A stretch of DNA of 64,000 nt from Sphingomonadaceae bacterium (GTDB lineage Bacteria; Pseudomonadota; Alphaproteobacteria; Sphingomonadales; Sphingomonadaceae), in the NCBI GenBank assembly GCA_025359425.1, contig JANYGC010000114.1, positions 1 to 64,000 of the forward strand, read 5' to 3'. The notes beneath the pieces were generated by a model. The model made no database searches, was not told the DNA's origin, and worked only from the letters and a program-made list of their open reading frames with translations. A program made the translations under genes and the position numbers. Of the stretch, positions 6,960-10,392 are shown in pieces; position 1 is the stretch's first letter; the number at the start of each line of letters is the position of its first letter.

Positions 6960-8174
6960 ATGCGCAAACGATACTGGATACCGCTGGCGATAATTGCGGT
7001 CGCGCTGATCGGCTTTTTCGGCGTGCTCCCCGGCTATCTCGAAGCCAGCATGAACAAGATCGATGGCAAGCCGCTGATCGCGGTCTCGCCTGAGGCAGCG
7101 GCGCTGCACCGCAGCCTGCACATCGTCGACCTCCATTCCGACACTTTGATGTGGGCGCGCGAGCTGACTGAAGCTGGCGGACGCGGGCATGAGGATCTGC
7201 CCCGGCTCACTGCGGGCAACGTGACGCTGCAGGTCTTCGCCTCGACCACCAAGAGCCCCCGAGGGCTCAATTACGACAGCAATCCCTCGGATTCGGACGT
7301 ACTGCCAGCCTTGCTGATCGCGCAGCGCCAGCCTGCGGCGACCTGGACCTCGCTGCTCGCCCGGTCGCTATTCCATGCCGCCAAGCTCGACCGCTCGGTG
7401 GCGCTGGCGCAGGGCCGGCTGGTCAAGGTGACCGATCCGTTCAGCCTCGACCGGCTGCTCGGCAAGCATGCTTCGGCAGGCGGTCCGGTCGGCGCGATGC
7501 TGTCGATCGAGGGGCTGCATGACCTTGAAGGCAAGCCCGAAAATCTCGCCAAGCTTTACGCTGCCGGCTTCCGCATGGCGGGCCTCACGCACTTCTTCGA
7601 CAACGAGCTCGCCGGATCGATGCACGGCGAGAGGAAGGGCGGATTGACTCCGTTTGGGCGGCAAATTGTCGGCCTGATGGAAGATCGCGGCATGATCGTC
7701 GACATTGCCCATTGCAGCCACCAGTGCCTCGCCGAGGTACTCGCCATGGCGCGCCGCCCGGTGGTCTCGAGCCACGGCGGGGTGCAGGCGACTTGCCAGG
7801 TCAACCGCAACCTGACCGACGACGAGATCAAGGGCGTGGCGCGCACCGGCGGGGTGGTCGGGATCGGTTACTGGGATGCGGCGGCGTGCGACACCTCCCC
7901 GCGCGCGGTCGCCAAGGCGATCAAATATGTCCGCGATCTGGTCGGGATCGACTACGTCGGTTTGGGCAGCGATTACGACGGGGCCACGACCGTCCGGTTC
8001 GATACCTCGCAGCTGGTCCAGGTAACCCAGGCCCTGCTGGACGAGGGCTTCTCCCCGCAGCAGATCCGCGCCGTGATGGGCGGCAATGCGCTGCGGGTGA
8101 TCCGTGCGGGGTTGCTGCCGCTGCCGCAACTTCGCTCCTCCCCCTCTGGGGGAGGTGGCAGCGCGAAGCGCTGA
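6960..8174 (+). CDS. Membrane dipeptidase (peptidase M19 / renal dipeptidase family)
   Basis: IVDLHSDTLMWARE, DIAHCSHQ, GIDYVGLGSDYDG; N-terminal TM; C-terminal tail encoded by a repeat element. Confidence 0.93.
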   Translation: MRKRYWIPLAIIAVALIGFFGVLPGYLEASMNKIDGKPLIAVSPEAAALHRSLHIVDLHSDTLMWARELTEAGGRGHEDLPRLTAGNVTLQVFASTTKSPRGLNYDSNPSDSDVLPALLIAQRQPAATWTSLLARSLFHAAKLDRSVALAQGRLVKVTDPFSLDRLLGKHASAGGPVGAMLSIEGLHDLEGKPENLAKLYAAGFRMAGLTHFFDNELAGSMHGERKGGLTPFGRQIVGLMEDRGMIVDIAHCSHQCLAEVLAMARRPVVSSHGGVQATCQVNRNLTDDEIKGVARTGGVVGIGYWDAAACDTSPRAVAKAIKYVRDLVGIDYVGLGSDYDGATTVRFDTSQLVQVTQALLDEGFSPQQIRAVMGGNALRVIRAGLLPLPQLRSSPSGGGGSAKR

Positions 8175-8251
8175 CGGTGGGGGCATGCTAGACCGAACTC
8201 AAACCCCCTCCGACCCGCTTTTGGCGGGCCACCTCCCCCAAAAGGGGAGGA
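8136..8251. repeat. MITE-like palindromic repeat element with 23-nt terminal inverted repeats
   Basis: TCCTCCCCCTCTGGGGGAGGTGG (8136-8158) and reverse complement TCCTCCCCTTTTGGGGGAGGTGG (8229-8251), 21/23 identity; internal CAGCGCgaaGCGCTG hairpin. Confidence 0.85.
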
Positions 8252-8258
8252 TTTCCGG

Positions 8259-9191
8259 ATGACCATTCCCCGCCTCGACGCCAGCCAACCGCTGCCGCCT
8301 GAATTTCGCGGCGCGGTGATCGCGCTGGGCAATTTCGACGGGTTCCATGCGGGCCACCAGGCGGTCGCCAAGGCCGCGCTCGATTGGGCCAAGGGCCAGG
8401 GCCGCCCCGGGATCATCGCGACTTTCGATCCGCATCCGGTGCGCTACTTCGCGCCCTCTGCGCCGCCGTTCCGGCTGACCACGCTAGGTCAGCGGCAGGA
8501 CCTGTTCGCGGCGGCCGGGGCCGACGCGATGCTGGTGTTCCAGTTCGGCAAGGCGCTCGCGGAAACCACCGCCGAACAGTTCGTTGCCGACCTGCTAGCG
8601 GCGCGGCTGGGTGCCTTCGCGGTGGTGACCGGCGAGGACTTCACCTTCGGCAAAGGCCGCACCGGCAATGTCGCGGTGCTGGCCGATCTGGCCGCGCAAA
8701 ATGGCATGGCGGCGCGCGCCATCGGCCCGGTGGCCGAACACGGCGAGGTGGTCTCGTCGAGCCGGATCCGCGATGCGCTCAAGGCCGGGGACTGCGCGGG
8801 CGCGGCGGAATTGCTGACCCGCCCATTTGCGATTCGCGGGACCGTCCAGCACGGGGCCAAGCTCGGGCGCAGCATCGGCTATCCGACCGCCAACCTCGAA
8901 TTGGGCAGCTATCTGCGCCCGCGCTACGGCATCTACGCCGTCACCGCGCGGTTGCCCGACGGGACCGTGGTGCCCGGGGCCGCCAACCTTGGCATCAGGC
9001 CGAGCTTCGATCCGCCGATCGAACTGCTCGAGACCTTCCTGTTCGATTGGTCAGGCGATCTTTACGGGGCCGAAATCGAAGTCGCGCTGCACCAGCACTT
9101 GCGCGACGAGGCGAAATTCGATTCACTCGAAGAACTGACCGCGCAGATGGCGCGCGATTGCGATCAGGCGCGGGGAATATTGCAGGCATGA
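8259..9191 (+). CDS. ribF: Bifunctional riboflavin kinase/FAD synthetase
   Basis: IALGNFDGFHAGHQAV, FDPHPVRYFAP, TGEDFTFGKGRTGN, kinase domain GTVQHGAKLGRSIGYPTANLE. Confidence 0.95.
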   Translation: MTIPRLDASQPLPPEFRGAVIALGNFDGFHAGHQAVAKAALDWAKGQGRPGIIATFDPHPVRYFAPSAPPFRLTTLGQRQDLFAAAGADAMLVFQFGKALAETTAEQFVADLLAARLGAFAVVTGEDFTFGKGRTGNVAVLADLAAQNGMAARAIGPVAEHGEVVSSSRIRDALKAGDCAGAAELLTRPFAIRGTVQHGAKLGRSIGYPTANLELGSYLRPRYGIYAVTARLPDGTVVPGAANLGIRPSFDPPIELLETFLFDWSGDLYGAEIEVALHQHLRDEAKFDSLEELTAQMARDCDQARGILQA

Positions 9192-10237: not shown

Positions 10238-10392
10238 TCCTCCTCCTCGGGGGGAGGGGGACCATGCTCTTGCATGGTGGAGGGGCACGCGCGGTGATCG
10301 CAACATCGCGAGGGCAGGACCACTGGCCTGTACCCCTCCACCAGCTGCGCTGGTTCCCCTCCCCTCCTGAGCCTGTCGAAGGGCGGGGAGGA
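10237..10392. repeat. Palindromic intergenic repeat element (second MITE/REP-like copy class)
   Basis: GGGGAGGGGGACCATGCTCTTGCATGGTGGAGGGGCAC mirrored by reverse complement of GTACCCCTCCACCAGCTGCGCTGGTTCCCCTCCCC; contains CCTGAGCCTGTCGAAGG. Confidence 0.75.

Follow-up and report, generated by a model that had tools for sequence, protein, structure and literature searches.

The window, a 64,000-nt stretch of contig JANYGC010000114.1 from a Sphingomonadaceae bacterium, carries the gene for an M19 membrane dipeptidase followed on the same strand by ribF (Table 1), whose product passes the NCBIfam cut-off for NF004160 in a profile match. The host genome comprises 2.9 Mb in 136 contigs, and its named relatives include Novosphingobium kunmingense (73% protein identity). 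Across the junction between the two genes lies a palindromic repeat element of 116 bp, the length given by the sequence-only reading that preceded this analysis; its terminal inverted repeats, put there at 23 nt (21/23 matched), were extended by inverted-repeat detection to 24 nt, with 22/24 positions (92%) complementary and 68 nt between the two arms. The element was also said to encode the last ~13 codons and the stop of the dipeptidase, and it does supply both tail and stop, but the tail has 12 codons: the element starts exactly at codon 393, its 12 codons SSPSGGGGSAKR (8136-8171) run into TGA (8172-8174), and the R codon ahead of them (8133-8135) is flanking DNA. The C-terminal end of the dipeptidase ORF reads LRSSPSGGGGSAKR; the conserved M19 domain stops at residue 382 and the element-derived tail occupies residues 393-404. 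On the other side, the right terminal repeat ends in GGGGAGGA, 7 nt before the ribF ATG, just as had been noticed from the sequence. Both ends of the element (AATCCTCCCC is their sequence) read outwards into GGGGAGGA, a perfect Shine-Dalgarno (SD) at each edge. Rfam gave nothing at or above gathering score across 7900-8500.

Table 1. Features of the dipeptidase-ribF junction (window positions) and in-frame copies of the element inside genes at other loci (positions within the locus, where given).
Feature	Position	Strand	Basis or remark
M19 membrane dipeptidase gene	6960..8174	+	ORF; Pfam PF01244 at residues 49-382, E 3e-66
Palindromic repeat element, 116 bp	8136..8251	+	Inverted repeat and family copies
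Left terminal inverted repeat, itself palindromic: TCCTCCCC NNNN GGGGGAGGTGGC	8136..8159	+	
Element-encoded dipeptidase end, SSPSGGGGSAKR and TGA stop	8136..8174	+	ORF; near-identical tail in G162, G023
Left internal hairpin AGCGCGAAGCGCT	8160..8172	+	Stem varies on both sides in other copies
Right internal hairpin CCCGCTTTTGGCGGG	8214..8228	+	
Right terminal inverted repeat	8228..8251	+	Inverted-repeat detection
Local hairpin CCTCCCC-CAAAA-GGGGAGG, pairing the SD	8232..8250	+	-14.1 kcal/mol (predicted)
GGGGAGGA, SD-like right end of element	8244..8251	+	7 nt before ribF ATG (8259)
Spacer TTTCCGG (7 nt), element end to ribF start	8252..8258	+	
ribF, bifunctional riboflavin kinase/FAD synthetase	8259..9191	+	ORF; NF004160, E 4.8e-95
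truB with in-frame copy	L238:631-1668; L249; L289		
tsaD with in-frame copy	L232:662-1825		
uvrA with in-frame copy	L025:536-3049; L269		
Methylmalonyl-CoA mutase gene with in-frame copy	L177:1373-3058; L266		
cca with in-frame copy	L018:389-1885; L263		
Dihydrolipoamide acyltransferase-like gene with in-frame copy	L262:730-2046		
imuB-like gene with in-frame copy	L288; L281; L272		

The suggestion that the element is a repeat with other copies genome-wide was borne out. In the 2.9-Mb host genome the terminus TCCTCCCCNNNNGGGGGAGGTG has 60 exact matches (35+25, against 0 in the control), and with up to three mismatches it has 68 forward and 68 reverse matches against 0 and 1 for the reversed-pattern control, a count far beyond chance; the element itself is present there in about 40 copies, full and partial. 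Within the genus, 37 of 196 genomes contain the terminus, about 12 of them at 15 to 80 matches each, while the control gave zero; G197, G316 and G034 are among the high-copy genomes. In an order-level sample the terminus is confined to Sphingomonadaceae (14 of 72 genera overall), within which the family is patchy. Among the loci read, which are stretches around copies, 58 distinct full copies of 106-135 bp share a fold of terminal stem, inner stem and inner hairpins. Across these copies the left inner hairpin varies on both sides of its stem (at one pair, for example, 29 are G-C and 28 C-G), and the family is hence a palindrome with a structure of its own, more than just a repeated sequence. 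Host contig C117 (43.5 kb) is unusually rich in copies, with at least five places. Similar-looking termini, TCCTCCCCGNNNCGGGGAGGGG, at window 10238-10259 and at host C1:39008, C8:1595, C9:7113, C87:14387, C94:18785 and C101:9451, suggest a second, related repeat family, into which the window instance fits poorly.

The description of the junction element as a MITE was not sustained. The repeat is like MITEs (Correia, ERIC, RUP) in being short (116 bp), bounded by terminal inverted repeats (24 nt), dispersed, devoid of an encoded transposase and able to alter neighbouring genes, but unlike them it comes without a detected target-site duplication or an identified parent insertion sequence: direct repeats of 2-8 nt were no commoner at the 58 copies than in shuffled flanks, and an insertion-sequence search limited to the Y1 family found no parent transposase. 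An A precedes and a T follows the element ends, so that the palindrome extends into the flanks. Like REP/REPIN sequences, the element consists of two palindromic units in inverted order that fold into one long hairpin; unlike REPIN/RAYT systems, it shows no association with a RAYT/Y1 transposase gene that has copies of it alongside. Y1 genes were rejected as mobiliser on two counts, a different repeat lying beside the host's single Y1 gene and the presence of such genes not tracking copy number (4/10 high-copy versus 4/10 low-copy genomes). The host Y1-type transposase gene is at L031 (~1381-2240), and the short repeat near it is GTGTCCCCGGAATTG, with an inverted pair around GGGGACACAATACTAATTAG. 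A literature search, with subscription papers outside its scope, yielded no earlier account of the sphingomonad repeat or of SDs provided by the ends of repeats.

The dipeptidase-ribF adjacency is kept in most relatives, and those without the element do not encode the same tail and ribosome-binding site: their dipeptidase tails are unrelated to SSPSGGGGSAKR, their ribF leader has no equivalent, and where ribF is adjacent almost all of the junctions overlap, mostly by 4 nt (ATGA/GTGA), or are at most 15 nt apart. The insertion of the host is shared by two close relatives, G162 and G023, with a matching tail and an identical 84-nt gap to the ribF ATG. G163 lacks the element and G183 has an apparent left-half remnant or a separate half-copy; in each of these two, dipeptidase and ribF overlap by 4 nt. 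A copy is therefore found at the junction in three of the five clade species and is absent or fragmentary in the other two, which means that ribF does not need it. Given the clade tree ((G023,G163),(G183,(G000,G162))), rooted with G034, G141 and G121, the simplest history would be a single insertion in the ancestor that two lineages subsequently lost by deletion, separate events being possible. Conservation of the ribF element is 90% and 89% over ~114 nt, compared to four-fold-site identities of 0.66 and 0.58, but other orthologous copies, intragenic ones included, are equally conserved; the figure is thus no special evidence for the ribF copy, and structure or gene conversion, rather than a role at ribF, may lie behind it. 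In L087, from a more distant sphingomonad, a different palindromic repeat follows the dipeptidase at the same junction, leaving a 149-nt gap, so this junction has taken up a repeat on more than one occasion.

The spacing seen at ribF recurs at other genes. Downstream genes were examined for copies from nine genomes, using calls by codon statistics, not curated annotation, and taking the first in-frame ATG/GTG as the predicted start irrespective of any SD. Half of the distinct genes (17/34) begin 3-8 nt past GGGGAGGA (P 2e-4 versus a uniform distribution over 3-23 nt); after correction for gap length the count is 19/35 against 9.0 expected (P 1.6e-4), orthologues being only partly collapsed. 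They include ribF, glyS, ispE, tolR, nuoH, nuoJ, ampD, queE, a cdsA-like gene and others, identified by sequence resemblance with a profile check for some. Where the start is 9-23 nt from the element, the linker of nearly every gene contains an SD-like motif. In the host ddl copy the terminus is changed to GGGGGGGA, 7 nt ahead of the ddl start. Upstream stops show a wider spread of distances than downstream starts, and often lie 8 or 15 nt from the element in very short tandem gaps; elements are generally packed tightly between genes, and part of the start proximity is therefore compactness. Orthologous loci in G163, G121 and G139 have empty sites, which identifies the copies as insertions that displaced native starts. 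At tolR and ampD native SDs persist upstream of the element, and in the cdsA-like gene (L176 versus L325-L327) the old start region is kept, with an early stop after it and an apparent new start past the element. At L009 and L279, a second gene takes its C-terminus and stop from the same element, with the tail SSPAGGGGSAQR or SSPTGGGGSAPR.

The right terminus had been proposed to be a ready-made ribosome-binding site, and its spacing and the recurrence of that spacing agree with this; its accessibility does not, as the SD lies in the predicted local hairpin. In predicted foldings the ribF SD is almost fully paired (probability unpaired ~0 for the G-rich core) in every context tried, removal of the left arm included. 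We nevertheless consider it probable that the inserted repeat, which gives the dipeptidase its new tail, also supplies the SD of ribF, and that its family amounts to a portable, self-folding ribosome-binding site. The element entered a translationally coupled junction, with the dipeptidase stop overlapping the ribF ATG, most simply in an ancestor of the host and its close relatives, and created the new 12-residue tail and stop and an 84-nt structured leader ahead of ribF. With such a leader, simple stop/start overlap is no longer available to ribF, which most likely starts from the terminal GGGGAGGA, provided that ribosomes use this SD. Ribosomes that reach the dipeptidase stop, in the left half of the element, would break the long-range stem and probably still aid ribF; the remaining local hairpin could then be opened by breathing or by trailing or leading ribosomes, leaving the SD to direct ribF initiation. 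Insertions near a start would survive with the terminus at 3-8 nt, or far enough away for the native SD to stay intact, and selection would in this manner have produced the spacing pattern; such survival would make the family behave as a portable ribosome-binding site. Co-option of the junction is well supported. The further claim, that a mobile repeat was domesticated into the expression of an essential gene, fared less well, with a copy in only three of five species and no special conservation, and domestication for expression is best called plausible.

Several of these observations would suit a tolerated passenger, that is, a selfish repeat in a permissive junction, with ribF translated by reinitiation or weak initiation and the SD likeness a by-product of a G-rich terminus. 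The element is not conserved across the clade, the ribF copy is conserved to an extent resembling that of other copies, its SD is sequestered in the predicted hairpin, and copies at SD position showed no weakening of the hairpin (-15.3 versus -16.7 kcal/mol in other copies, P 0.27). A passenger would not account, however, for a clustering of starts at 3-8 nt that exceeds what gaps explain, for SD-like motifs of their own at nearly all the more distant genes, or for the exact 84-nt spacing kept in three species despite a four-fold-site identity of only 0.58-0.66, and we hold this explanation to be possible but unlikely.

The same hairpin raises the question of whether the element is a translational down-regulator, one that hides its own SD, the main effect of the insertion being to uncouple ribF and lower its output, perhaps in the manner of a riboswitch or a temperature-responsive element. 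The stability of the local hairpin (-14.1 kcal/mol), the whole-element fold (z -4.6 by predicted folding) and a CACCUCC beside the SD, which resembles the 3' end of 16S rRNA, are in keeping with it. Strong silencing could, however, hardly be borne by the downstream genes, many of them with essential or central functions (glyS, ispE, ddl, nuoH), and the 58 full copies showed no SD-arm-specific covariation beyond the general palindrome; we find down-regulation rather unlikely. An insertion-site preference, with the family targeting the few bases before start codons and SD spacing set by the insertion machinery and not by selection on expression, could explain the very short tandem gaps and the upstream stops 8 or 15 nt away, but is improbable given that many copies are located past the ends of genes, between convergent genes or within genes, and that the native SDs of tolR and ampD were left upstream of the element and so were not its target.

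If the element does supply ribF with its SD, a mobile repeat can tolerate tight operons by bringing along a ribosome-binding site and an open reading frame, and this would account for the persistence of such repeats at places where an insertion is normally lethal; sister species that differ in having the element at a given gene would then provide natural experiments on lost translational coupling. Copies also occur in frame inside truB, tsaD, uvrA, cca, the methylmalonyl-CoA mutase gene and others (Table 1), adding ~36-45 residues and no stops. Relative to solved structures, TruB has residues 174-209 as an extra segment between 1sgv positions 156 and 162, and residues 314-358 of methylmalonyl-CoA mutase are likewise an insert. 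We tentatively extend the argument, at somewhat less than even confidence, to a mobile 'translation-compatible' family, whose outward SDs would have been adopted repeatedly by essential genes while other copies became in-frame inserts, and which would have been selected to be harmless between as well as inside genes. Rickettsia palindromic elements are palindromic repeats of ~100-150 bp, present in many copies and found in frame in unrelated protein genes (PMC10969869). The Sphingomonadaceae repeat is like them in size, palindromy, copy number and in-frame intragenic copies, a likeness of behaviour; unlike them it is GC-rich, mostly intergenic and provided with an outward SD at both ends, and it is read in several frames, as opposed to one conserved peptide. 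It would thus present a case of palindromic repeats creating protein segments outside Rickettsiales, in free-living Sphingomonadaceae. In uvrA of two genomes, two part-copies lie back to back.
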